A stretch of 63,743 nt of DNA from Terriglobales bacterium (GTDB lineage Bacteria > Acidobacteriota > Terriglobia > Terriglobales > SCQP01). A program made the position numbers and the translations under genes. The stretch lies in contig JANWJU010000108.1 in the NCBI GenBank assembly GCA_025451775.1, positions 1-63,743 of the forward strand, read 5' to 3'. The notes under the pieces were generated by a model. The model ran no database searches. It saw only the letters and a list, made by a program, of their open reading frames with translations, and was not told where the DNA came from. How positions within the stretch are numbered: position 1 is the stretch's first letter; every line of letters starts with the position of its first letter. Below, piece by piece: positions 3,844 to 52,251 of this stretch.

Positions 3844-5016
3844 TTAGAAGTTCCGCACCTGCTCGCGGTAGGCGTTGGCGTTGCGCTGCAACTCGAGGAG
3901 CGAGTCGCCGCCAAATTTTTCCAGCGCCGCCTGGGCCAGCACCAGCGCCACCATGGCCTCGCCCACCACGCCGGCGGCGGGCACCACGCACACGTCACTG
4001 CGTTCGTAGGCGGCCTTGACCGGCTCGCGGGTCTCAAAGGCCACGCTCTCCAGCGGGCGCCGCAGGGTCGAGATGGGCTTGAGGAATCCGCGGACGATGA
4101 GCTCCTCGCCGTTGGTCATGCCGCCCTCCAGCCCGCCGGCGTGGTTGCCGGCGCGGGTGAAGCGATGCTCGCCGCGGTCGTAGCCGATGGGGTCCTGGGC
4201 CAGCGATCCGGACGTGGCGGCGGCGGCGACACCGGCGCCGATCTCGCACGCCTTCACCGCCTGGATCGAGCAGATGGCTTGCGCCAGCTTGCCGTCCAGA
4301 CGTTCATCCCAATTGGCGCAGGTGCCCAACCCCGGCGGCAGGCCCGCGGCGCGCACCTCGAAAACGCCGCCGATGGTGTCGCCGGTGCGCAGCACGCGAT
4401 CCACCTCCGCCTTCATGCGCTGCTCCGCCTCGGTATCGAGGCAATGAAGCAGGATCTCCTCCCGCGCCGCCAGTTGACGCAGCCCCTCCCAGGTCACCGG
4501 CACGGTTTCGGGCAGCACGGCCGCGCCTACCTGAATCACGTGGCTGAGCACCTCGATCCCCAACGCGCGCAACAACAACTTGGCCACCGCGCCCGCCGCC
4601 ACCCGCGCCGCCGTCTCGCGCGCGCTGGCGCGCTCCAGCACGTAGCGCGCCTCGGGGAAATTGAACTTGATGGCGCCCGCCAGATCGGCGTGGCCGGGAC
4701 GGGGACTCTTCACCGGCCGCGCCGCCTCGCCGGCGGGCGTGGCCACCGCCAGTGTCTGCTCCCAGTTCTTCCAGTCGTGGTTGGGGATAAGCACCGCGAT
4801 GGGAGCGCCAATCGTCGCTCCATTGCGCACCCCGGAGAGGAACTCCGGCGTGTCGCGCTCGATCTTCATGCGCCCCCCACGGCCGTAGCCCTGTTGCCGG
4901 CGCCATAACTCGTGGGCGACAAAAGCGGGGTCGATCGCCAGCCCAGCGGGCATGCCCGAGAGCAGCGCCAACAGGGCTTGGCCGTGGGATTCGCCGGCGG
5001 TGGAGAAACGTAGCAT
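3844..5016 (-). CDS. aroC: chorismate synthase
   Basis: Catalyses the last shikimate-pathway step, EPSP to chorismate, using reduced FMN. The 390-residue product starts MLRFSTAGESHGQAL, the family's N-terminal FMN/substrate region. It carries GRGGRMKIERD, the RASARETAAR signature (about residues 129-138) and DPIGYDRGEHRFTRAGNHAGG near the C-terminal half. The length is typical. It heads the leftward housekeeping operon; the promoter should lie in the 5017-5250 divergent region shared with the MlaE gene. No other aro genes are in the window. Confidence 0.97.
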   Translation of the reverse strand: MLRFSTAGESHGQALLALLSGMPAGLAIDPAFVAHELWRRQQGYGRGGRMKIERDTPEFLSGVRNGATIGAPIAVLIPNHDWKNWEQTLAVATPAGEAARPVKSPRPGHADLAGAIKFNFPEARYVLERASARETAARVAAGAVAKLLLRALGIEVLSHVIQVGAAVLPETVPVTWEGLRQLAAREEILLHCLDTEAEQRMKAEVDRVLRTGDTIGGVFEVRAAGLPPGLGTCANWDERLDGKLAQAICSIQAVKACEIGAGVAAAATSGSLAQDPIGYDRGEHRFTRAGNHAGGLEGGMTNGEELIVRGFLKPISTLRRPLESVAFETREPVKAAYERSDVCVVPAAGVVGEAMVALVLAQAALEKFGGDSLLELQRNANAYREQVRNF

Positions 5017-5039: not shown

Positions 5040-5080
5040 GTGGCTCGCCACTTTTCGCTGGGTCGCTCCCGCTGGTCGCT
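5040..5080 (-). repeat. dispersed repeat A, copy 1 (intergenic)
   Basis: A 41-bp element in the divergent region between aroC and the MlaE gene. On the plus strand it reads GTGGCTCGCCAC, then TTTTCGCTG, then the direct-repeat core GGTCGCTCCCGCTGGTCGCT (GGTCGCT twice, 13 bp apart). It is identical to the copy at 33924-33964 and one base different from that at 23874-23914. The minus-strand reading can encode SDPAKSGEP. I assign the strand by that potential coding direction. Confidence 0.85.
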
Positions 5081-5263
5081 TTGACGGAATGGCCGTCGGC
5101 GACGCGCCCGTAGCTAACCGGGCGGCTACCGATCCGATCCGGCTACAGCCGGGGGATGGTCACGCCGCTGGCGCACGAGCGGGGCTGAGGGGACCCCGCG
5201 ACGCGCCGTCGGCTCAGCGGGCGGCGAAGCCGGGCGCCCGCGTCAAATATGCTAGATTCTGGG

Positions 5264-5281
5264 CAGGAGGAAACGGATTTG
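5264..5281 (+). promoter_or_regulatory. ribosome binding site deciding a TTG start for mlaE
   Basis: GCAGGAGGAAACGGATTTG: a strong AGGAGGA Shine-Dalgarno sits about 8 bases before TTG at 5279. The in-frame ATG at 5249 has no ribosome site and lies inside a TATGCT/TAGATT stretch that looks like a -10 region. I therefore take TTG 5279 as the likelier start. The 10 extra residues of the ATG version carry no recognisable feature. Confidence 0.5.
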
Positions 5282-6091
5282 GCCACGGCGGCGCCCCCAC
5301 GGGGCGAGGAGGAGATCCAGTGGGGGTTCATCGGCTGGCTCAAGGGCCAGCTCGAGGGCCTGCAGGCCTACTCCCTGCTCACCGGCCGCACCTTCCGCAA
5401 CGTCCTGGCGCGCCCCTTCTACGGCGGCGACACCATGCTGCAGATGGACAGCCTCGGCGTGGGCTCGCTGCCGATCGTGCTCATGACCGGCTTCTTCACC
5501 GGCGCCGTCATGGCGCTGCAGTTGTCAGCCACGCTGGCGCAGTACGGGCAGATTCAGCGCACCGGGCAGCTCGTCGCCCTCTCCATCGTGCGCGAGCTGG
5601 GACCGGTGCTGACCGGCCTCATGGTGGCGGCGCGCAATGCCGCGGGCATGGCCAGCGAGCTGGGCTCGATGGTGGTGACCGAGCAGGTGGACGCCATGCG
5701 CGCCCTGGGCACCGATCCCATCAAGAAGCTGGCCACGCCGCGGCTGCTGGCCACCATCTCCATGACCTTTTCCCTCACCATCATCGCCGATCTGTGCGGC
5801 TTGATCGGCGGCTATCTCTACGCCATCCTGGCGTTGCGGCTGGACGGCCGCCAGTACTGGTACACCGCGATGCAGGCGCTGGGCGCCACCGACATGGCTC
5901 AGGGGCTGTTGAAACCGGTGGTGTTCGGCATCATCATCGCCACCGTGGCCTGCTACTTCGGCATGTCGGCGCGGGGTGGCACGCGGGGCGTGGGGCGCGC
6001 CACCACGCAAGCGGTGGTGTCGGCCTCGGTGCTCATTATTCTCACCGACTTCCTGTTGAGCCGGGTGCTGATCGGCTTCTTCGGGGCGTAA
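5279..6091 (+). CDS. mlaE: MlaE-family ABC transporter permease
   Basis: Inner-membrane permease of the Mla/MCE phospholipid transport system, which moves lipids between inner and outer membranes. About 270 residues with several hydrophobic segments. The MlaE-specific central region reads VRELGPVLTGLMVAARNAAGMASELGSM, then EQVDAMRALGTDP, the family coupling-helix neighbourhood. The stop TAA overlaps the next ATG by one base, so permease and ATPase are coupled. No MCE-domain substrate-binding gene (mlaD) follows; it must lie elsewhere. The start is TTG by ribosome-site evidence; ATG at 5249 is the alternative. Confidence 0.9.
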   Translation: MATAAPPRGEEEIQWGFIGWLKGQLEGLQAYSLLTGRTFRNVLARPFYGGDTMLQMDSLGVGSLPIVLMTGFFTGAVMALQLSATLAQYGQIQRTGQLVALSIVRELGPVLTGLMVAARNAAGMASELGSMVVTEQVDAMRALGTDPIKKLATPRLLATISMTFSLTIIADLCGLIGGYLYAILALRLDGRQYWYTAMQALGATDMAQGLLKPVVFGIIIATVACYFGMSARGGTRGVGRATTQAVVSASVLIILTDFLLSRVLIGFFGA

Positions 6092-6888
6092 TGGCGGACG
6101 CCCCCATCGAAATAGAATTCGACAATGTGAGCATCACCCTGGGCGCCACCCCGGTGCTGCGCGGCCTGTCGCTGCGCGTCCGGCGCGGAGAAACCAAGGT
6201 GCTGCTGGGCGAATCGGGGGCGGGCAAGTCGGTGGCGCTGAAGCTGGCGATTGGGTTGCTGCGGCCCGACCAGGGCCGCGTCATCGTGCTCGGCGAGCCG
6301 GTCAGCACGATGCCGGAGGCGGCGCTCTATCGGCTGCGGCGCCGGATCGGGATCGTGTTCCAGGAGAGCGCGCTGTTTGATTCCCTCACCGTGCGCGACA
6401 ACGTGGCCTACCGGCTGGACGAGGAGCACGCCATGGACCTGGAGGCGATCGACGCCCGGGTGCGCGCCTGCCTCGCCGCGGTCGAGCTGGAAGAAGTCAT
6501 GGACAAGTTTCCCGCCGAGCTCTCCGGCGGCATGCAGCGCCGCGTGGCCATCGCCCGTGCCCTCGCCACCGAGCCCGAGATCATGCTCTTCGACTCCCCC
6601 ACGGGCGGGCTCGATCCCATCACCGCCACCAACATCATGGAGCAAATCATCCGCCTGCGGGATGTGAACCACGTCACCTCGCTCCTGGTCACGCATCGGC
6701 TGCAGGACGCGGCCATGCTCGCGGCCTACCGCTGGGATGCGGAACACAATGCGCTGCGCCCGGCCGATGGCATGAGCGCCCACACCTCCTTCCTCGTCCT
6801 GCACGACCAACATGCCGTCTTCGATGGTTCCGCCGCCGAACTGCACGCCAGCACGCAGCCCTACGTGCAGCACTTCCTGCAAATCTAG
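6091..6888 (+). CDS. mlaF: MlaF-family ABC transporter ATPase with altered Walker B
   Basis: ATPase partner of the MlaE permease, 265 residues. Walker A is GESGAGKS near residue 36, the Q-loop is in IVFQESALFDSL, and the ABC signature is LSGGMQRR. The Walker B/D-loop region reads IMLFDSPTGGLDP: the position after the Walker B aspartate, normally the catalytic glutamate, is serine (codon tcc at about 6593-6595). This either slows hydrolysis or reflects a lineage-specific form; I cannot tell which. A His switch (LLVTHRL) is intact. The stop precedes a convergent AhpD-like gene by 11 bases. Confidence 0.9.
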   Translation: MADAPIEIEFDNVSITLGATPVLRGLSLRVRRGETKVLLGESGAGKSVALKLAIGLLRPDQGRVIVLGEPVSTMPEAALYRLRRRIGIVFQESALFDSLTVRDNVAYRLDEEHAMDLEAIDARVRACLAAVELEEVMDKFPAELSGGMQRRVAIARALATEPEIMLFDSPTGGLDPITATNIMEQIIRLRDVNHVTSLLVTHRLQDAAMLAAYRWDAEHNALRPADGMSAHTSFLVLHDQHAVFDGSAAELHASTQPYVQHFLQI

Positions 6889-12123: not shown

Positions 12124-12151
12124 AGGTGGCTCGCCACTGTTTGCCGGGCCG
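12124..12151 (-). repeat. dispersed repeat A, partial/diverged copy 2
   Basis: Between the APC permease start and the methyltransferase stop, the plus strand reads GTGGCTCGCCAC, then TGTTTGCCGGGCCGCT. The palindromic half matches copies 1, 3 and 4 exactly; the following bases are diverged and the GGTCGCT direct repeat is missing. I read it as a decayed or 5'-only copy. Confidence 0.5.
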
Positions 12152-22812: not shown

Positions 22813-23658
22813 CTAGGGCCGTTCCAGCAGGGCGAGGATGGGGGCGGAGTTGGCCGTCTGGGTGTCTGCAGGCTGCGGCTGGTCGGTGTGGAAGTAGAAC
22901 TTGTAGGCTTGGATCCAATTGCGGGCAATGGCTTGTTGCGCGGTGGCCAGCGGCAGGTTCCCCTGGCACACCGAACGTTGCAGGTACTGCTCGAGCTGGT
23001 CCTTGACGTAGGAGTTCCAGGTCGCGTGGGCGCGGGGTTCGGGCCAGAGGTTGCGGATGTCGGCGGTCCCGCCCAGGCCGGGCGTGATCAGGTAATCGAC
23101 CTCGAAGTTGGCGGGGTCGGCATGATGGAGGCCATACTCGCGCAGGACGCGTCGTTGGAGGCTGGGGGCCACTGGACGGTTGATGGGCACATCCTCGCGG
23201 CTGCAGAGGGCGCCGAGCGCGACCGGTTGGGCCGCGCCCGGGGTCAGGTGCGGATCGGGGAGCAGGCCTCCATCAACCTGCACCAGCGTGGCGCGGTGGC
23301 GGGGCAGCCCAACGGACGCCACGAGCAGCGCCAGCGCGAACGCCGCCACCCATTGCCAGTGCCAGCGCGCGGGCGCGGGCTGGAGCGCGGCGACGGCAAG
23401 GCGGGCCTGGAGGCGGCAGCGCGCTTCGTTGTGATCCACGGGAAAATCGGCGAGGTGACCGGCCAGGCCAGGGGTGAGTGGCATCCCCTCCTGGGTTTCG
23501 ACGGCGTAGACGTTGAGTAACTCCCTGATGCGCAGCAGCTCGGCCCGGCATGAAGCGCAGCGGTCCAGATGGGCGAGCACGCGCGCCGACTGGCGCGGCG
23601 GCAGGTCGTCATCGCTCAACCGTATCAGCTGGCGCGGGGAGGGATGACCTAAACGCAT
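22813..23658 (-). CDS. zf-HC2 anti-sigma protein fused to an HNH-like exported domain
   Basis: A 281-residue protein in three parts. Residues about 1-50 are a zf-HC2 zinc-binding anti-sigma domain (HLDRCASCRAELL, the H-x3-C-x2-C motif). A membrane helix follows near 100-120 (WVAAFALALLVASVGL). The exported tail (about 135-265) holds LTPGAA, LCSRE, then EVDYLITPGLGGTADIRNLWPEP and VCQGNLPLATAQQAIARNWIQAYKFYF. That tail matches the pattern of HNH-nuclease-like domains (DHLIPLxLGG..xIxNLWPE), except that the catalytic His is Tyr. The upstream ECF sigma gene is broken, so this anti-sigma may have lost its partner. Its ATG overlaps the end of that pseudogene. Confidence 0.75.
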   Translation of the reverse strand: MRLGHPSPRQLIRLSDDDLPPRQSARVLAHLDRCASCRAELLRIRELLNVYAVETQEGMPLTPGLAGHLADFPVDHNEARCRLQARLAVAALQPAPARWHWQWVAAFALALLVASVGLPRHRATLVQVDGGLLPDPHLTPGAAQPVALGALCSREDVPINRPVAPSLQRRVLREYGLHHADPANFEVDYLITPGLGGTADIRNLWPEPRAHATWNSYVKDQLEQYLQRSVCQGNLPLATAQQAIARNWIQAYKFYFHTDQPQPADTQTANSAPILALLERP

Positions 23659-23995
23659 GACGGATATCCTCGGCTGTCAGCGGGCCGGCGCCACCGCTCG
23701 CGCGGTAGTGGAGACCCTGGGCGCGGGAAAATCCAACCCTGCAAGGTATTCCGCGGCCGCCTCAGGCGTAAATGGCGGTAAAGCTGCAGAAACACCGTTT
23801 GGGTGATCTCCTCGCCGTCCTGAATCGACAAACCCAGCGACAGAATATAGCACAGCAGCCCGCGCCGGTGTTGGTGGCTCGCCACTTTTCGCTTGGTCGC
23901 TCCCGCTGGTCGCTAACCTCACTCACAATCTCTCCGGGGGCGTGGCCGGTGACCCGTGCCGCCGTAAGGACGGCTGCTGCTTCCAAATTGCTCAT
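23649..23995 (-). pseudogene. decayed ECF sigma factor gene carrying repeat A
   Basis: A start-like reading from 23995 gives SNLEAAAVLTAARVTGHAPGEIVSEV. The repeat A copy (23874-23914) follows. The sigma region 2 then resumes in a different frame (LCYILSLGLSIQDGEEITQTVFLQLYRHL, residues typical of ECF region 2.1-2.3), then NTLQGWIF and RERWRR remnants, and a stop at 23649. Region 4 is missing. The stop overlaps the start of the anti-sigma gene (ATGCGTTTAG), which implies the original sigma/anti-sigma operon was coupled here. The decay thus combines a frame change, a large internal loss and the repeat. Confidence 0.7.
23874..23914 (-). repeat. dispersed repeat A, copy 3 (inside sigma pseudogene)
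   Basis: A 41-bp copy with one substitution (TTTTCGCTT for TTTTCGCTG) relative to copies 1 and 4. It lies exactly where the sigma-factor reading frame changes, between the N-terminal extension and region 2. One frame across it reads SDQAKSGEPP, close to the SDPAKSGEPP of the oligopeptidase copy. Confidence 0.85.
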
Positions 23996-29580: not shown

Positions 29581-32209
29581 CGCCCACCTCCATAAACTCC
29601 GCGGGCGCGTGGTCCATCTCCCACTCGCCGATCCGGCACAACATGGGCAGGTCGCAATGTTTGCAGGTTTCGCGGCGAACCTTCGGGTCGATCTCGGCCC
29701 CACCCGCCAGATACGCCGCGGCGAGATCGAGCAACGCCTGTTCCCACGCCGGCAGCAAGCCGGGCGTGCAATCTGCCTTTTTCAACGCCACATCGCCGAA
29801 GCGGAGTTGCACGAAGGCAATCCCCCCAATGCTGTCCCGCGCGGCATCGGTGACCGCGTAGACCGGTAATTGCGGCTCCTCGGGCCGGGGCATGTCCCAC
29901 AGGCCTGGCGACACCTTGCCCGATTTGTAGTCCAGCAGCACACGGCCGCCGCCGTCGAGTTGATCAATCCGGTCAAGGCGCAGCTTGAGCTTGAGGCCGC
30001 CCCAATCGAGTTGGCGCTCATGTTCCAGAGCCTCGACGTGAAAGGCCGGACGCGTGAGTTCGACCTCCAGCCACGCCGTGACCAAATCGGTGAGCCGGTG
30101 CATTTCGGCGTCGGCCAATCCGGGGCGGGCGTGCAGCAACGGTTCCGCGCCGGTGACCGCCGCCGCGGCCTGGGCGGCGAGGCCGCGGCGTTCGTCCGCG
30201 CTCATGGCCAGGAGCCGGGCTTGGCTGCCAAGTTGCTCGAACACGCGCTGCAAGACGGCGTGCAGCAGCGTCCCGCGGGTGGTGTGGGTGAGGCCCGCAG
30301 GCGGCGCGTCCGCCGCTTCGGCGTGCAAGCGCCGATGCACGAAGGCGCGGAACGGGCAGGCCGCTTGCTCTTTAAAGATGCCGGTGCCACCCTCGGCGTC
30401 CGCGCCCGTGGCTGGGGGAGCGTGCGTGTCGTCAAGGGCGGCTATGTCAGCCGCCTGTCGCCGCGCGTCCCTATTTTCCATGGGGTGTTCCACCGGCGTC
30501 CAGGCGATCGGCTCCCAGGGCAGCAGCGGACTGGGTTGCAGCGGGCGCTCGCCATCGTTGGCGGCGTAGCTGATGGCGATGGCATCGGCGCTGCGGCGCA
30601 GCCGATCGAGCTGGCGCTGGGCAAAATCGGATGTCTGCGCGGGCGTGGCGTGGGGCAGGCCAAGCTCGGCCTGCCAGCGGCGCGGCAGAAACGGATGCGG
30701 CGCTGCCGGCGCGGGCACGGCGGTGTCGTCCAAGCCGGTGATCCAAAGATGGTCGAACTCCAGTCCGGCGGCCTCGAGCCAGCCCATAATCTGTACACCG
30801 CCTCCAGCCTGTTCGGGCTGAAACAGCCGCCCGGCGGCGACGGCGCGCAGGTTGCGGAGCGCGGCATCGGCGGTGACCGGGCCGCGGGCATTGACGGCAT
30901 CGAGGCTGGCGCAGCCGGTAAGCGCCTGCTGCCAGACCTCGCAGGCTTGATGTTCAGCGCTGGAGAGACCGCGCTCGCCCGGCCATCCCATGGCCGCGAG
31001 CGACGCCGCAAAGCGCTGGGTCCAGCTTGCCAACGGCGCTGTGCCAGGACCGCGGAGCGCGTCGCGGCCGGCTGCGAGCGCCCGCGCCAGCCCCGGGCAG
31101 AAGCGCGCGGTCTCCGCGCCGCCCAGCGCTTCAGCGGCGATCTGCGACCGTCCTTGGCGCGCCCAAGTGGGGCGCCGCCGCGCGCGGGGGCCGGCTTCCT
31201 GCTCCGCACCCGCCAGAAACGGCGAGCTGACGATGGCGGCCGCGCGCGCGGGATCGAGCCAGGCGCCGGCGGGGGTGAGCGCCCATTCGAGCAACTCCAA
31301 GGCCGCCGCCGCCACCGGCCAAGCCGTGAGCGGCCGGCCCAGCGAGAGGTGAAACGCAGGCGGCGCTGCCGCCCACGGCGCCCGCTCGGGGTGAAACTCG
31401 GCCGCGAATGCGTGGGCGGCCAGGTCGCGGATGCCGTCCAGCCCCGGCGCCACCATTGCGATGCTCTGGCTCGGATCCGCCATCCACAATTGATGCGCCC
31501 AGCGCGCCGCCGCCGCCATCTCCTGCGCCGCATCGGGGGCCTGGCAGGCCTGCATGAGGGAGCCGCGGCGCTCGGGCTGCGGCCAGCGGTTGAGGGCCAT
31601 GCCCGCCGCTGCCATCGCCTCCATCAGCTCTCGCTGCCGCGGCGGTGCGACCTCGTCGAAACCCGCCATCCAGACCGTCTTGGCTATCGACGCTTCTCCG
31701 CCTCGCAGCAGCCCGGCCACGGCTTGGGGCAATTCGGCGGCGGTGATCCAGCCACCGCGGCGGCAACGTTCGCGCACCAGTTCCACCCAGTGGTGAAACG
31801 CCGCCGTCTCCTGGTTCTGCCCCCAGGCCGCGTCGTTCCAGGGCAGCGCCCACGCGTGCGCCAGTTCCCAAGCCGCGGCCGCGGCCGCCGCCGTGGCTTC
31901 CACATCCAGCAGCGCGGTGTCCATCCTGCCCGGCCCGGCGGGGCCGGCGGGGCCGCGGACTGCCTCATCCCATAGCCACCGCTCCTGCGCTGGATTGAGC
32001 AGCACGCGGTCGCCGTGCTCGCGCCACACCTGCTCCAGCCAGGCCGAGAGCGGCACGATCACCGGCGCCTCCCAGGCGCGCCCGCCGGCCTGCTGCTGGC
32101 GCTCATCGTAGGCGCGGCGCAGCTCCCGGGCCAGCCGGGCTTGGGCGGTGAGCAGCGTGGCGCCGGCGGCGAGCGAAGCCCAGGCCGTCTCAATGCTGGT
32201 GGGGTTCAC
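29570..32209 (-). CDS. AddB-like PD-(D/E)XK nuclease with Fe-S cysteines
   Basis: An 879-residue partner of the AddA-like helicase. The N-terminal part resembles an inactive helicase scaffold (LTAQARLARELRRAYDER, no clean Walker A). The C-terminal nuclease has LLHAVLQRVFEQLG and VLLDYKSGK (motif with catalytic Asp and Lys). Four cysteines that would bind a 4Fe-4S cluster are split as in AddB: one in CPFRAFVHRRL and three in CKHCDLPMLC near the end. It starts with GTG, overlapping the oligopeptidase stop as GTGA. The operon order is oligopeptidase-addB-addA. Confidence 0.85.
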   Translation of the reverse strand: MNPTSIETAWASLAAGATLLTAQARLARELRRAYDERQQQAGGRAWEAPVIVPLSAWLEQVWREHGDRVLLNPAQERWLWDEAVRGPAGPAGPGRMDTALLDVEATAAAAAAAWELAHAWALPWNDAAWGQNQETAAFHHWVELVRERCRRGGWITAAELPQAVAGLLRGGEASIAKTVWMAGFDEVAPPRQRELMEAMAAAGMALNRWPQPERRGSLMQACQAPDAAQEMAAAARWAHQLWMADPSQSIAMVAPGLDGIRDLAAHAFAAEFHPERAPWAAAPPAFHLSLGRPLTAWPVAAAALELLEWALTPAGAWLDPARAAAIVSSPFLAGAEQEAGPRARRRPTWARQGRSQIAAEALGGAETARFCPGLARALAAGRDALRGPGTAPLASWTQRFAASLAAMGWPGERGLSSAEHQACEVWQQALTGCASLDAVNARGPVTADAALRNLRAVAAGRLFQPEQAGGGVQIMGWLEAAGLEFDHLWITGLDDTAVPAPAAPHPFLPRRWQAELGLPHATPAQTSDFAQRQLDRLRRSADAIAISYAANDGERPLQPSPLLPWEPIAWTPVEHPMENRDARRQAADIAALDDTHAPPATGADAEGGTGIFKEQAACPFRAFVHRRLHAEAADAPPAGLTHTTRGTLLHAVLQRVFEQLGSQARLLAMSADERRGLAAQAAAAVTGAEPLLHARPGLADAEMHRLTDLVTAWLEVELTRPAFHVEALEHERQLDWGGLKLKLRLDRIDQLDGGGRVLLDYKSGKVSPGLWDMPRPEEPQLPVYAVTDAARDSIGGIAFVQLRFGDVALKKADCTPGLLPAWEQALLDLAAAYLAGGAEIDPKVRRETCKHCDLPMLCRIGEWEMDHAPAEFMEVGDDA

Positions 32210-34374
32210 GCGTCGGCTCCCAAGGCATCGAGCAGCCAGGTGTACTCGAAGGCGACTTCCCGCAACCGGTCGTAGCGGCCGGAAGCGCCGCCGTGGCCGG
32301 CGGCGAGGTTGGTCTTGAGCAGGAGCGGAGTGGTGTTGGTTTTCAACTGCCGCAGACGAGCAACGTATTTGGCCGGCTCCCAGTACATGACCTGGCTGTC
32401 GTTGAGGCTGGTGGTGACCAGCATCGCCGGGTACGCCTGCGCCGTGAGGTTATCGTAGGGGCTATAGGAGCGCATGTAGGCGTACGCCGCGGCGTCATGC
32501 GGGTCGCCCCACTCCAGGTACTCGCCCACCGTGAGCGGCAGGGTCTCGTCCATCATGGTGTGGATCACATCGACGAACGGCACCGCCAGATGGGCCGCGC
32601 GGAACAGCTCCGGCCGCAGGTTCAGCACCGCGCCGATCAGCAGTCCGCCGGCGCTGCCGCCCTCGACGGCGAGTTTTTCGGGCGTGGTCCAGCCCTGGGC
32701 GACGAGGTGCTCGGCGCAGTCGATGAAATCGAAGAAGGTGTTTTTCTTGTGCAGCAGCATGCCGGCATCGTGCCAGGCTTCGCCCATCTCGTTGCCGCCG
32801 CGCACGTGGGCGACGACGTAGGTCACGCCGCGATCCAACAAACTAAGGCGGGCGCTGGAAAAACCGGCTTCAAGGCCGTAGCCGTAGCTGCCGTAGCCGT
32901 AGAGCAGCAGCGGGCCGGGGCGGGCCGCCCCCCGTTTCCATACCGCCGACAGCGGCACGCGCGTGCCATCGCGCGCCGCCGCCCACAGCCGCGCCGTCTC
33001 GTAGGCGGACGGATCGTAGCCGCCCAGCACCGGCTGCTGCTTGAGCAACTCGGTCGCCCCCGTGGCCATGTCGTATTCGAATACGCTGGCCGGCGTGACC
33101 GGGCTCTGATAGTGGTAGCGATAGCGCTGCGCGCCGGGCTCGGGGTTGGTTCCGGGCGAGGCCGCGTACACCGGCTCGGGAAAGGGGACCGTGGTCCAGG
33201 CGCCGGGGGCAAGCGCATTGGCGAAGCGGTGCACGCGCAGCCGGGTGAGTGCTGCCGCCGTCTCCTGCGCGACCGCGAAATCGTCGAATAGATCCAGGCC
33301 CTCGATCAAGACCTCGGGATCATGCGGCAGGAACTCGCGCGCGGCCTCCCAATCCGGCGCCGCCGCCGGTACGGTGAGCACGCGGAAATTCTTGGCGCCG
33401 AGGTTGGTACGGATATAAAACAGCCCGGCGCGGTGGTCGATATCGTACTTGTGGTCGCGCTGCCGCGGGTGGAATAGGCGCAGCGGCGCGGTGGGAGTAT
33501 CCGCCGCCAGGTAGCGGAACTCGGTGGAGTCGGTGGCGGCGATGCCGAGCAGGATGTAGCGCAGATCGCGGGTGCGGTCCACGCCGATGTGGTAGAGCTC
33601 GTCGGGTTCGAAGTAAACCTCATGATGATCGGCGCCCAAACGATGGCGCCAGAGGCGGTCGCTGCGCTTGGTGACCTCGTCCTCGGTGGTATAGAACAGC
33701 GTTTGGGAATCGGCAGCCCAGGCGACGGAGGTGACGCGCTCGGCGATGATGGTGACGGCCCCGGCCGCCAGCTCTTTGACGCAGAGCTGGTAGCGGCGCA
33801 TCCCGGTGTGATCCACCGTGTAGGCCAGGCGGCGGGCATCGTCGCTGATCTCGAAGGCTCCCAGGCTGCAGAAGGGGTGGCCGGCGGCGAGCTGGTTCTG
33901 GTCAAGCAGAATCTCCTCGGGCGGTGGCTCGCCACTTTTCGCTGGGTCGCTCCCGCTGGTCGCTTGAGGGCGGGCTTCGATTGGCGGCAGCGGATGCCCG
34001 CTCTGCTCGTGGCATCTCCAAGCTGCCTCCATGGGGTTGTCGCCACGGCGGCAATGGATGGGGTATTGCAGGCCTTCCTCGGTGCGCGAGTAATAGCGGA
34101 ACGCGCCGCGCCGCACCGGCACGCTCAGGTCGGTTTGCTGGATGCGTCCCAGCATCTCCCGATAGACGGCCTCGACCCGCGGCTCGTTGGCGGCGGTGGC
34201 GGCGGCGGTGTAGTCGTTTTCCGCCTCCAGGTAGGCGCGCACGGCGGGATCGTCCCGCTCGCGCAACCAGAAGTAGGGGTCGGCGAGGGTCTCTCCGTGA
34301 TAGGTGTCGGTGTGCTCGCGGCGTTCGGCCGTGGGCGGAGCGAGGGTAGGCGTGGGCGGCGGCTCGGGACGCAT
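32206..34374 (-). CDS. oligopeptidase B-like S9 peptidase with repeat-derived insert
   Basis: A 722-residue prolyl-oligopeptidase-family serine peptidase, cytoplasmic, cutting short peptides. It has the N-terminal propeller entry YHGETLADPYFWLRERDDP. The catalytic triad sits in GGSAGG (Ser), DSQVMYWEPAKYVARLR (Asp) and GHGGASGR (His). Residues about 112-151 are an extra segment not expected in relatives, lying between YPIHCRRG and PEEILLDQN, which are normally only a few residues apart. This segment is encoded by repeat B and repeat A in frame and reads ...PQATSGSDPAKSGEPP. The gene stays open throughout, so the insert is tolerated. It leads the addAB-like operon. Confidence 0.9.
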   Translation of the reverse strand: MRPEPPPTPTLAPPTAERREHTDTYHGETLADPYFWLRERDDPAVRAYLEAENDYTAAATAANEPRVEAVYREMLGRIQQTDLSVPVRRGAFRYYSRTEEGLQYPIHCRRGDNPMEAAWRCHEQSGHPLPPIEARPQATSGSDPAKSGEPPPEEILLDQNQLAAGHPFCSLGAFEISDDARRLAYTVDHTGMRRYQLCVKELAAGAVTIIAERVTSVAWAADSQTLFYTTEDEVTKRSDRLWRHRLGADHHEVYFEPDELYHIGVDRTRDLRYILLGIAATDSTEFRYLAADTPTAPLRLFHPRQRDHKYDIDHRAGLFYIRTNLGAKNFRVLTVPAAAPDWEAAREFLPHDPEVLIEGLDLFDDFAVAQETAAALTRLRVHRFANALAPGAWTTVPFPEPVYAASPGTNPEPGAQRYRYHYQSPVTPASVFEYDMATGATELLKQQPVLGGYDPSAYETARLWAAARDGTRVPLSAVWKRGAARPGPLLLYGYGSYGYGLEAGFSSARLSLLDRGVTYVVAHVRGGNEMGEAWHDAGMLLHKKNTFFDFIDCAEHLVAQGWTTPEKLAVEGGSAGGLLIGAVLNLRPELFRAAHLAVPFVDVIHTMMDETLPLTVGEYLEWGDPHDAAAYAYMRSYSPYDNLTAQAYPAMLVTTSLNDSQVMYWEPAKYVARLRQLKTNTTPLLLKTNLAAGHGGASGRYDRLREVAFEYTWLLDALGADA
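33924..33964 (-). repeat. dispersed repeat A, copy 4 (in frame inside oligopeptidase)
   Basis: Identical over 41 bp to copy 1 (5040-5080). Read on the gene's strand it encodes ATSGSDPAKSGEP in frame, at residues about 138-150 of the peptidase. The GTGGCTCGCCAC half-palindrome forms the 3' end of the inserted stretch. Confidence 0.9.
33999..34031 (-). repeat. dispersed repeat B, copy 1 (in frame inside oligopeptidase)
   Basis: A 33-bp segment, with core CTGCTCGTGGCATCTCCA, matching 49008-49040 with a single mismatch. On the gene's strand it encodes MEAAWRCHEQS within the same 40-residue insert that holds repeat A. The two are separated by 34 bases. Confidence 0.75.
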
Positions 34375-44820: not shown

Positions 44821-46281
44821 ATGGGTCTGACACGGCGCAATTGGTTACAAATATCGGCGGGGGTATTCGCGGCTGCGGTTCCGGCACGGTGGGCGCGGGC
44901 GGAGCGCGGCGTGGGCCAAGGCGCGCTGCCGGGCACGGCCGCGGGCGAATCATCGACGACTCTAGCCGCCGCCTATGGCCAATCGCCGTATCCCAGGTTG
45001 CCGATCACCTTTTTCGCCCACCGTCTCGGCACCGACCACTGCGAGAGCGTCTCCGTCATGGACATGAACGGGGATGGGCGGCTCGATATTTTGAGCGGCG
45101 CCTACTGGTACGAAAACCCCGGCGCGGCGGGCGGACCCTGGGCGCGGCATCAGTTCCGCGAGGTGCCGCTGACGGGCGAATTTGTGGACGACTGCGCCGA
45201 GTATCTGATCGACGTGAACAAGAACGGGCGGCTGGATCTGGTGACCTCGAGCTGGCAGCGGGATGGCATCTGGTGGTACGAGAACCCGGGCAAAGCCGAC
45301 GTCATGTGGCAGCCGCATAAGATCTGCAGTTCGATCGATACCGAAGGCATGGTGATCGGCGACCTGATGGGCACGGGCAAGAATCAGGACCTGCTCGCCT
45401 GCCATTACAACAGCAACGGCCTGATCTGGGTGAACTTCTCCGGTCCCGAGCCGGTGGCGCATCAGGTGGGCGCGCGCCTGCCGCTGCCGCCCCGGCCGGC
45501 CCCGCGCGGCGGCGCGGCCGGGCGCCGCGGCGGCCCTGGCCGCCGCGGCCCGCAGTGGCCCACCTCGCTGGGCCAGGGCGATGGCCACGGGGTCGGCATC
45601 GGCGACATCGATGGCGACGGCAAAAACGACATCCTCACCCGCCACGGCTGGTTCAAGAACATCGACGCCAGCCAGAACAAGTGGGAGTTCCGCCCGGAGT
45701 GGGAGCTGAAGGAAGAGGCCGGTTTCCCCATGATCGTCTACGATGTCGATGGCAACGGCCGGCCCGACGTCATCTACGGCAACGGCCACGGCTACGGCTT
45801 GTTCTGGCTGGAACAGCTGGGCAACGGCACCTGGCGCCAGCACCTGATCGACGATTCCGTCTCCCAGGTGCATGCCATCGCCATGGCCGATCTCGACGGC
45901 GACGGACAACTGGAGCTGATCGCCGGCAAGCGCTACCGTGCCGACCCCAACGAAGGCCAGTACGATCCGCTCGCCATCCATTACTACAAGCTCGACCGCG
46001 GCACGCAGCGCTTCACGCGTTTCCCCATCAGCTATAACGGCACCGCCGAGGTGGGCACGACCATCATCCCGGTCGATATCGATGGCGACGGCGACCTCGA
46101 CATCGTCGTGGGCGGCAAGACCGGCGTGCATTGGATCGAGAGCTACCGCATCGGCAACCCCGGTCCGCGCGATGCCGTGCGCGACAAGGAACTGCTGCTC
46201 AACTACGACTGGCCCTTCCCCGGCGAAGGCACCAGCGTCACCCAGCAGAGCGCCCCGGTCGACGACTCGACCCCGCTATAA
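44821..46281 (+). CDS. exported FG-GAP/VCBS propeller protein, copy 1
   Basis: A 486-residue protein. Twin-arginine signal (TRRNWLQISAGVFAAAVPARW). Repeated calcium-binding DxDGDGxxD modules follow: DMNGDGRLDI, DVNKNGRLDLV, DIDGDGKNDI, DVDGNGRPDV, DLDGDGQLEL, DIDGDGDLDI, each followed by an aromatic strand, consistent with a beta-propeller. An Arg/Gly/Pro-rich linker (PRGGAAGRRGGPGRRG) is unique to this copy. It is followed after two bases by a near-duplicate and then by a GH10 xylanase, suggesting a carbohydrate-related exported module. The exact role is unknown. Confidence 0.85.
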   Translation: MGLTRRNWLQISAGVFAAAVPARWARAERGVGQGALPGTAAGESSTTLAAAYGQSPYPRLPITFFAHRLGTDHCESVSVMDMNGDGRLDILSGAYWYENPGAAGGPWARHQFREVPLTGEFVDDCAEYLIDVNKNGRLDLVTSSWQRDGIWWYENPGKADVMWQPHKICSSIDTEGMVIGDLMGTGKNQDLLACHYNSNGLIWVNFSGPEPVAHQVGARLPLPPRPAPRGGAAGRRGGPGRRGPQWPTSLGQGDGHGVGIGDIDGDGKNDILTRHGWFKNIDASQNKWEFRPEWELKEEAGFPMIVYDVDGNGRPDVIYGNGHGYGLFWLEQLGNGTWRQHLIDDSVSQVHAIAMADLDGDGQLELIAGKRYRADPNEGQYDPLAIHYYKLDRGTQRFTRFPISYNGTAEVGTTIIPVDIDGDGDLDIVVGGKTGVHWIESYRIGNPGPRDAVRDKELLLNYDWPFPGEGTSVTQQSAPVDDSTPL

Positions 46282-46283
46282 CC

Positions 46284-47609
46284 ATGAGGCGAACGCGCCG
46301 AGGCTGGTGGCAAGCGTTGACGGGCCTGTTGCCCGCCTACGGCGCGTCCCCCTATCCCAAACTTCCGCTGACGTTTTTCGCCCACCGCCTCGGCACCGAC
46401 CACTGCGAAGGCGTGAGCGTGATGGACTTCAACGGCGACGGCCGGCTGGACATCATCAGCGGGGCCTACTGGTATGAAAACCCGGGGCCGGCGGGCGGGC
46501 CGTGGGTGCGGCGGCAGTTCCGCCTGGTGCCCACGCTCGATGAGCGCGTGACCGACTGCGGCGAGTTCCTGATCGACGTCAACAAGAACGGCCGCCTCGA
46601 TCTGGTCACCTCGGGCTGGCAGCGGGACGGGATGTACTGGTATGAGAACCCCGGGCGCCTGGGCCCGTTGTGGGAGTGCCATAAAATCTGCCACTCCGTC
46701 GACACCGAGGGCATGGCGATCGGGGATCTGCTGGGCACCGGCAAAAACCAGGACGTGGTCGCCTGCCATTACGACAGCAGCGGCCTGATCTGGATCAACT
46801 TCTCCGGCACCGAGCCGGTAGTGCACCAACTCGGCGCGCGCATTCCGCGGCCCGCGCCCAGAACGCCGCCGAAAAACCCGCCTTGGCCGCCGGATTTTGG
46901 CCAGGGCGACGGCCACGGCGTGGGCATCGGCGACCTCGACGGCGATGGCAAGAATGACATTCTGACCCGCCACGGCTGGTTCAAAAATATCGACGCCGCG
47001 CACGACCAGTGGGAGTGGCGTCCGGAGTGGGAGCTGAAGGAGGAGGCCGGATTCCCCATGATCGCCTATGACGTCAACGCCGACGGCGTCATGGATTTCA
47101 TCTACGGCAACGGCCACGACTACGGACTCTACTGGATGGAGCAGCTCGGCCACGGCGCCTGGCGCCAGCACCTCATCGACGACTCCGTATCCCAGGTCCA
47201 CGCCATCGCCATGGCCGACCTCGACGGTGACGGGCAGCCGGAGCTGATCGCCGGCAAACGCTACCGCGCCGATCCCAACCCCGGCCAGTACGACCCGCTC
47301 GCCTTGCACTACTACAAGATCGATCGGCGCACGCAGCGCTTCACCCGCTTTCCCATCAGCTACAACGGCACCGCCGGCGCCGGGACCACCATCATCCCGG
47401 TTGACATTGACGGCGATGGCGACGTGGACATCATCGTCGCCGGCCGTACCGGCGTGCACTGGCTGGAGAGCTACCGCATCGGCAGCCCCGGCCCTCGCGA
47501 CGCCGTGCGCGACAAGGAGCTGCTGTATAACTCCGACTGGCCCTTCGACGGCGAGGGCACCGAGGTCGGCCAGCAGAGCGCGCCCACGGACGACTCAACC
47601 CCGTTGTGA
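46284..47609 (+). CDS. FG-GAP/VCBS propeller protein, copy 2
   Basis: A 441-residue paralogue of the upstream gene with the same module order (DFNGDGRLDI, DVNKNGRLDLV, DLDGDGKNDI, DVNADGVMDF, DLDGDGQPEL, DIDGDGDVDI). The N-terminus (RRTRRGWWQALTGLLPAYGAS) is short and lacks a convincing twin-arginine or Sec signal, unlike copy 1. It may export with copy 1 or stay cytoplasmic, or have lost its leader. The proteins are collinear and closely similar along most of their length. ATG 46284 is two bases after the previous stop, so an operon is clear. Confidence 0.82.
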   Translation: MRRTRRGWWQALTGLLPAYGASPYPKLPLTFFAHRLGTDHCEGVSVMDFNGDGRLDIISGAYWYENPGPAGGPWVRRQFRLVPTLDERVTDCGEFLIDVNKNGRLDLVTSGWQRDGMYWYENPGRLGPLWECHKICHSVDTEGMAIGDLLGTGKNQDVVACHYDSSGLIWINFSGTEPVVHQLGARIPRPAPRTPPKNPPWPPDFGQGDGHGVGIGDLDGDGKNDILTRHGWFKNIDAAHDQWEWRPEWELKEEAGFPMIAYDVNADGVMDFIYGNGHDYGLYWMEQLGHGAWRQHLIDDSVSQVHAIAMADLDGDGQPELIAGKRYRADPNPGQYDPLALHYYKIDRRTQRFTRFPISYNGTAGAGTTIIPVDIDGDGDVDIIVAGRTGVHWLESYRIGSPGPRDAVRDKELLYNSDWPFDGEGTEVGQQSAPTDDSTPL

Positions 47610-49007: not shown

Positions 49008-49040
49008 CGCTCTGCTCGTGGCATCTCCATGCTGCCTCCA
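49008..49040 (-). repeat. dispersed repeat B, copy 2 (intergenic)
   Basis: Matches 33999-34031 at 32 of 33 positions. Here it stands between tRNA-Thr and osmC with no coding role, directly upstream of the osmC start region. The flanks differ from those in the oligopeptidase. Confidence 0.75.
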
Positions 49041-51297: not shown

Positions 51298-52251
51298 TTG
51301 ACCTCTGAGCTCGCGGTTGAAACCCACACGTTGCGCAAGCTCTACGGCCGCAAGCTGGCGGTGAGCGACTGTACCCTGGCGGTGCGGCGGGGCGAGGCCT
51401 TTGGTCTGCTCGGGCCCAACGGCGCCGGCAAAAGCACCTGCGTGAAGATGCTGCTGGGGCTGGTGCGCCCCACCGCGGGCACGGGCCAACTGCTGGGCGA
51501 ACCGCTGGGAGCGGTGGCCGCGCGCCGGCGCGTGGGCTTTCTCCCCGAACACTTTCACTTCCAGGATTGGCTGAGCGGCACCGAACTCCTCCACCTGCAT
51601 GGACGCTTGCTGGGCATGGAAGCTGGCCGCCTGCGCCAGCGCGTGCCGGAGCTGTTGGAACGGGTCGAGCTGGGCCGCCAGGGCCGCAAGCCCATCCGCG
51701 AGTACTCCAAGGGCATGCAGCAACGGGTTGGCCTCGCCCAAGCCCTGCTGCAGGAGCCCGACATCGTCTTTTTGGATGAGCCCACCAGCGGTCTGGATCC
51801 GCTCGGGCGCATGCTGGTGCGCGACCTCATCGCCGAGCAGCGGCAGCGGGGCGCTACCGTGTTTCTCAACTCCCATTTGTTGGGCGAGGTTGAAGTCAGC
51901 TGCGACCGGGTGGCGTTCGTCAAGGCAGGGCGCGTTTTGGAGACACGCGATCTGCGTGCCCCAGAAGCCGTGACCGTGGTGAATGTGCGGGCGCGCTCCG
52001 TGCCGCGCGATGGCTGGGGCCGGTTGGGCATCCAAGGCCGGCGTCAAGACGATGCCAGCGCAAGCGACCCCGCCAAAGGTGGCGACCCCCCCGAAGCCTG
52101 GCGCTTTGAGTTGCCACGGCCCGAGCTGCTGCCGGAGCTGCTGCGATTGCTGGTCGATGCGGGCGCCGAAGTTTTCGAATACACGCCCCGGCGGGATTCG
52201 CTCGAGGAGACGTTTTTGCGGGTGGTGGGCCATGAAGGGGATGGCCAATGA
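51298..52251 (+). CDS. ABC transporter ATPase with repeat-derived stretch
   Basis: A 317-residue ATPase of the ABC-2 export type. Walker A GPNGAGKS, Q-loop VGFLPEHFHFQDWLS, signature YSKGMQQRVGLAQALL, Walker B VFLDEPTSGLDPLG, His switch LNSHLL. It starts TTG at 51298, 30 bases after the previous gene. Residues 256-265 read SDPAKGGDPP and are encoded by a diverged repeat A copy, in a variable C-terminal region (DASASDPAKGGDPPEAW). Its stop overlaps the permease ATG. Confidence 0.88.
   Translation: MTSELAVETHTLRKLYGRKLAVSDCTLAVRRGEAFGLLGPNGAGKSTCVKMLLGLVRPTAGTGQLLGEPLGAVAARRRVGFLPEHFHFQDWLSGTELLHLHGRLLGMEAGRLRQRVPELLERVELGRQGRKPIREYSKGMQQRVGLAQALLQEPDIVFLDEPTSGLDPLGRMLVRDLIAEQRQRGATVFLNSHLLGEVEVSCDRVAFVKAGRVLETRDLRAPEAVTVVNVRARSVPRDGWGRLGIQGRRQDDASASDPAKGGDPPEAWRFELPRPELLPELLRLLVDAGAEVFEYTPRRDSLEETFLRVVGHEGDGQ
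52062..52093 (+). repeat. dispersed repeat A, diverged copy 5 (in frame in ABC ATPase)
   Basis: AAGCGACCCCGCCAAAGGTG then GCGACCCCCC on the plus strand. About 24-25 of the 29 positions aligned match the gene-strand reading of copy 4 (SDPAKSGEPP encoded there, SDPAKGGDPP here). The direct-repeat half of the element is not evident. Confidence 0.55.

Follow-up and report, generated by a model that had tools for sequence, protein, structure and literature searches.

Bacterial genomes abound in short dispersed repeats of the REP-like and RPE-like kinds, and entire classes among them have no known mobilising enzyme. REP sequences and REPINs occur in high copy number, mostly outside genes and downstream of coding regions, form hairpins and follow a single-stranded DNA logic (PMC3733652, PMC6006769). 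RPEs, the Rickettsia palindromic elements, are about 150 bp long, are present in many copies, some of them in frame in unrelated proteins, and form hairpins, and the CGTC class of REPs is without a known transposase (PMC10969869, PMC3733652). Here we analyzed a window of 63,743 nt, the whole stretch of contig JANWJU010000108.1 from a Terriglobales bacterium, and describe a repeat family that is close to REP and RPE in behaviour and fails their defining tags and partner enzyme. Like REP and REPIN sequences, the element is high-copy, mostly extragenic, hairpin-forming and found at positions downstream of genes; unlike these 20-40 bp repeats with their GTAG tag, it measures 108-114 bp, its GTGG/GCGG left end is part of a hairpin stem, the genomes with the most copies have no RAYT and no RAYT locus is flanked by element ends. 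Like RPEs and CGTC REPs, it forms hairpins and is present in many copies, some of them in frame inside unrelated proteins; unlike both, it begins with GYGGC, ends with TGCCKCNN and has no CGTC tag. It further differs from RPE in having two hairpins instead of one palindrome, in the share of copies lying in genes (about 13% vs nearly half), in an orientation that follows replication, in an NNNG target rule and in belonging to an unrelated phylum. We consider it likely that the family is a non-autonomous miniature mobile element that inserts at the replication fork via single-stranded DNA.

The window belongs to a metagenome-assembled genome of 2.86 Mb (G000; 161 contigs, 82% complete). In the window, the sequence-only reading had described a 41-bp unit made of a near-palindrome and two GGTCGCT direct repeats. 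Its near-identical copies are real: the 41-mers at 5040 and 33924 are the same and the one at 23874 differs by one mismatch, all on the plus strand. The unit itself was wrong, as the copy at 33924 runs on to 34031. When copies were aligned with their flanks, the left edge was sharp and most copies continued rightward, which makes the 41-mer the left end of a 108-bp element with the full-length sequence GTGGCTCGCCACTTTTCGCTGGGTCGCTCCCGCTGGTCGCTTGAGGGCGGGCTTCGATTGGCGGCAGGGGATGCCCGCTCTGCTCGTGGCATCTCCAAGCTGCCTCCA and without coding capacity of its own. A short form of 41/42 bp also exists; about ten G000 copies end at base 41, including those at 5040 and 23874, and it was therefore the short form that had first been described. 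A subtype B is present as well, and a few copies are enlarged to 125-144 bp. Other subtypes (L023, L037, L050 and L039, L041) measure 126 and 141 bp, both multiples of 3, and carry additional hairpins in their central part, which suggests modular growth of the element. The features of the window are collected in Table 1.

Table 1. Element copies, their parts and their surroundings in the window
Feature	Position	Strand	Remarks
Short form, 41 bp	5040..5080	+	exact 41-mer, unrelated sequence beyond; intergenic
Chorismate synthase gene, neighbour of 5040..5080	3844-5016	-	Pfam
ABC transporter gene, neighbour of 5040..5080	5089-6888	+	Pfam
Possible left-end remnant, ~25 bp	12126..12150	+	first 13 bases exact; intergenic
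Short form, 41 bp	23874..23914	+	1 mismatch; upstream of the zf-HC2 gene
zf-HC2 gene	22813-23658	-	
Complete long form, 108 bp, subtype A	33924..34031	+	top model match of G000, 134.8 bits; antisense and in frame in the prolyl oligopeptidase gene
Prolyl oligopeptidase gene	32206-34374	-	ORF covered by Pfam S9_N and S9
Left terminal hairpin	33924..33935	+	GTGGC-TC-GCCAC, then TTTT
Right hairpin	33983..34027	+	GGCAG...CTGCC, inner stem GATGCC/GGCATC
Right-hand target flank NNNG	34032..34035	+	here TGGG; target base conserved at +4 (G)
Right-end relic, 33 bp	49008..49040	+	97% identical; direct repeat D11; downstream of tRNA-Thr
Doubtful, strongly diverged copy	52014..52090	-	model E = 0.0074; antisense in an ABC transporter ATPase gene

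The first list of copies in the window held up in part. It lacked the right-end relic near the tRNA-Thr gene. A partial copy had been placed at 12124; roughly its first 25 bp are kept, the start being at 12126 with 15 mismatches over 41 positions, and the model search of the window gave no covariance-model match to this remnant. The diverged copy reported at 52062 occupies 52050-52090 of the minus strand with 11/41 mismatches, coincides with a weak model match and is doubtful. Two copies were said to lie in frame in intact genes: the insertion in the prolyl oligopeptidase gene, whose nearest named relatives are mostly from Acidobacteriota, is sound, and the other depends on the doubtful 52062 copy. 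As for the copy at 23874, which had been placed in a broken sigma gene, sequence similar to ECF sigma region 2, recognised by eye only, adjoins it on the minus strand, and the copy stands upstream of a gene of anti-sigma type; possibly it lies inside a decayed ECF sigma gene.

Allowing up to three mismatches on both strands, we counted 67 left ends in G000, against 0 for a reversed-sequence control, and 119 in its congener G004, a 98% complete genome. Covariance-model matches numbered at least 123 in G000, at least 143 in G004, 42 in G003, 27 in G001 and 5 each in G002 and G006. Of 200 genomes drawn from the order, 9 had matches, all from one acidobacterial family (genus g1 five, g3 three, g6 one), and none was found outside it; each of the five genomes in the genus of G000 carries the element, and genera g2, g4 and g5 are free of it. 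Sister-species versions measure 111 bp and 114 bp, with 82-84% and about 75% identity, and copies share on average 88% identity within G000 and 94% within G004. A tree of the copies, built on few columns so that many inner forks are open, placed the G004 copies in one supported clade, those of G000 and G002 in another and those of G001 and G003 in a third. The family has amplified lineage-specifically, separately in each species. The same internal hairpin extension was seen in one G000 copy (L008:253-396, minus strand) and one G002 copy (L210, G002:C56, 317-460, minus strand), and because both species carry it, the subtype probably predates their split. The initial proposal of a non-autonomous element of this lineage had been set against an outcome of fewer than about ten copies and no empty-site alleles. 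The proposal clearly withstands this check, and the high copy number (67 left ends), the empty sites described below, the species-specific amplification and the restriction to one family support it.

The structure of the element was assessed by covariation on 16 representatives from three genera. The left hairpin changes from GTGGC/GCCAC to GCGGC/GCCGC in step, with compensatory T-A to C-G replacement in 7/16 representatives and 100% of cells paired, and four pairs of the right double stem show compensatory changes across genera. Over the whole structure 91.8% of cells were paired, vs 25-56% when the partner strand was slid. Individual copies fold no better than usual when compared with shuffles, and therefore the structural evidence is covariation, not energy. 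By this comparative evidence, both terminal hairpins are maintained through compensatory changes. Rfam gave no match to the element, and neither Rfam nor ARAGORN reported a tRNA at the window copies. A tRNA-derived origin, considered for the TTCGATT resembling a T loop and for some copies ending in CCA, was dropped, as the end varies (CCA, CGA, GCGT). The reading of the left end as an intrinsic terminator was likewise set aside as weak: the stem has 5 bp followed by TTTT, and the consensus scan gave no match in the one copy scanned.

Evidence of mobility came from empty sites. The joined flanks of eleven copies were searched in relatives, and for copy L045, in a gene that we take from its motifs to be a maltokinase, matches crossed the joint uninterrupted in G002, G003, G004 and other genera. 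The G000 protein reads HLGQVLKTA-[36 aa]-DDFFIFDFEGEP, and the 36 residues are absent from those relatives. In the codon alignment the G000 gene has exactly 108 bp more, placed between KTA and DDF next to the conserved DFEGEP motif, and no stretch is duplicated. A second gene (L032) has exactly 108 bp extra vs G002 and G004. In G003 and G004 the prolyl oligopeptidase orthologues match without a break at the joint, i.e., they are element-free; for this copy, aligned against G003, and for L015 the element-free orthologues have small codon-sized indels close by. For stop-flush copies a single flank aligned in relatives. The claim that no target duplication accompanies the repeat was borne out, as 121 long copies showed no excess of matching flanks at k = 1-8. 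Insertion thus occurs as an exact block that neither duplicates nor loses target sequence, and the repeat is a mobile element, far from chance.

IS200/IS605 elements insert beside a fixed left target of 4-5 nt. Like their derivatives, the element lacks a target duplication and has subterminal hairpins and lagging-strand polarity (in G004; indirectly only in G000); unlike them, it has a weakly constrained left flank and a strict G in the right flank, at +4. This G is present in 125/138 long copies (G000 53/59, G004 72/79), vs about 36% at control positions (p = 7e-41), the preceding three bases being free, and in 17/18 copies from other species once three false matches are left out. It is a target base, because it is already there in the empty maltokinase genes; insertion takes place 3 nt to the 5' side of this G. 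The left flank seldom has a C at -1 (9/138) and prefers purines at -2 and -1, with at most 0.38 bits per position from -4 to -1.

Read on the complementary (bottom) strand, the target becomes 5'-CNNN/element (the slash marking the junction) in 91% of copies, and bacterial topoisomerase I favours a C four nt upstream of its cleavage site, at -4 (PMC7587558). The resemblance is a lead, not a demonstration. It opens a host-driven alternative, in which the element is joined at nicks made by topoisomerase I (type IA) at the fork, without a dedicated transposase of the types tested, and the absence from G004 of every transposase family tested, together with a target rule that holds in three genera, fits this idea. 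We nevertheless regard it as improbable: a one-base match at fixed spacing could come from another enzyme, copy-making and the precision of the ends are left unexplained, the C-bearing strand differs from the lagging-strand template inferred from skew, and the literature searched held no precedent.

We evaluated placement relative to genes with a custom gene finder, for which 800 kb of G004 served as training sequence. About 87% of copies lie outside genes. Those within genes are antisense in 18/19 cases (G004 9/9, G000 9/10; p = 8e-5), a set that includes two short forms and a few copies at gene ends with uncertain gene limits. All 17 long in-gene copies measure 108 or 111 bp, a multiple of 3, and leave the frame open, in-frame placement in unrelated proteins being verified for the maltokinase and the S9 peptidase. 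Between genes, the left end falls -1 to 2 nt from the stop codon of a co-oriented upstream gene in 10 copies of G004 and 12 of G000, i.e., 22 vs about 5 expected (2.6 per genome when positions within those spacers are randomised; p ≤ 2e-4), roughly four times expectation. For the right end the corresponding counts are 1 (G004) and 0 (G000), without any such excess. Examples of stop-flush left ends are L010:1501, L033:2001, L052:2001 and L190:2193. A stop-like trinucleotide as sequence target was rejected, since such trinucleotides were not clearly enriched away from real stop codons; the adjacency therefore does not reflect a simple sequence target.

The stop-flush left ends, the hairpin followed by a T run, the replichore orientation and the antisense bias in genes could all be expected of a regulatory or chromosome-organising motif (a terminator, a protein-binding site or a KOPS/Chi-like signal) kept by selection and not mobile. 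As the sole explanation this is contradicted, because empty sites exist, and with exact 108-bp inserts in conserved enzymes, species-specific amplification and absence from the other genera of the order also against it, we give it very little credence. Some copies may still have a secondary use.

Orientation was examined against GC3 skew corrected for gene strand. In G004 the top strand of the element lies on the G-rich (leading) strand in 63/76 copies (p = 5e-9), and orientation correlates with regional skew at 0.72, vs -0.22 (not significant) for gene strand. The locus-level skew test was flat in G000 (35/68), where GC skew is weak in many contigs; there, copies on the same contig agree in orientation 23:5 (p = 0.0018), and copies in larger strong-skew stretches mostly agree with the skew. 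Orientation thus follows replication in one near-complete genome, G004. Single-strand transposition on the lagging-strand template would give such polarity (PMC6006769).

Under insertion via single-stranded DNA, the reading that we favor, an enzyme supplied in trans would recognise the folded ends at the replication fork, with the GTGG...CCA strand carried by the lagging-strand template. The element would be joined to its target one strand at a time, which would leave no duplication. Selection after insertion may then remove sense copies from genes, plausibly since the left hairpin with TTTT (TTTTT in a sister species) interferes with transcription. The survivors would be antisense, frame-keeping and stop-free inserts along with intergenic copies.

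A RAYT had been suggested as the partner enzyme, and our searches did not bear this out. Y1_Tnp (PF01797; IS200/RAYT) was absent from G000, G001 and the 98% complete G004; one match each was found in G002 and G003, with further matches in other genomes of the family, and element ends did not flank the G002 and G003 loci. IS110 was absent from G001, G003 and G004, and IS91 (Y2_Tnp) and RVT_1 from all five genomes of the genus, so that none of RAYT/IS200, reverse transcriptase, IS110 and IS91 offers a candidate common to the carrier genomes. A diverged or recently lost enzyme is possible.

The most serious competitor invokes a Y1 transposase, either RAYT or TIRYT, that spread the element as a REPIN-like repeat and has been lost or sits in an unassembled part of the genomes. 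Terminal hairpins, the lack of a target duplication, lagging-strand polarity and the extragenic preference fit HUH/Y1 chemistry (PMC6006769), Acidobacteria do carry TIRYTs, which are Y1 enzymes with terminal repeats (PMC3733652), and the Y1_Tnp matches in the family point the same way. We hold this version to be doubtful, since G004 lacks Y1_Tnp despite its completeness and its highest copy number, the Y1 loci of G002 and G003 have no element ends nearby, the GTAG tag is absent, the length is several times that of a REP (108-114 bp vs 20-40 bp) and no left target tetranucleotide is conserved.

Two further classes were compared with the element. Like MITEs of DDE transposases, it is small, non-coding and high-copy, with empty sites in relatives; unlike them, it has neither a target duplication nor long terminal inverted repeats, its ends sharing only the 5-bp GYGGC/GCCGC. 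A derivative of a group II intron or retroelement would require a reverse transcriptase in trans, which is missing (RVT_1 in 0/5 genus genomes). For the study of such repeats, the family offers hundreds of sharp-ended copies, empty sites, a one-base target rule, an orientation along replication and a near-complete genome that lacks the usual enzymes, so that candidate enzymes are directly testable. It also amounts to a natural collection of 36-37-residue peptide insertions in protein genes, nearly always antisense.

Two other features of the window and its genome were observed. A second repeat family, with the core GCGGGCGGCGAAGCCGGGCGCCCGCG that often follows a stretch GCGACGCGCC...GGC(C/G)AA, lies at window positions 5180-5242 and also in L002, L030, L217, L218, L227 and L235; it has 13 copies in the G000 stretches fetched and 1 in 800 kb of G004, with 0 for the reversed control. 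At window positions 44969-47176, two neighbouring genes (44821-46281 and 46317-47609) are about 80% identical over long stretches, with repeated motifs of the D-x-D-G-D-G type, and are likely a tandem gene duplication.
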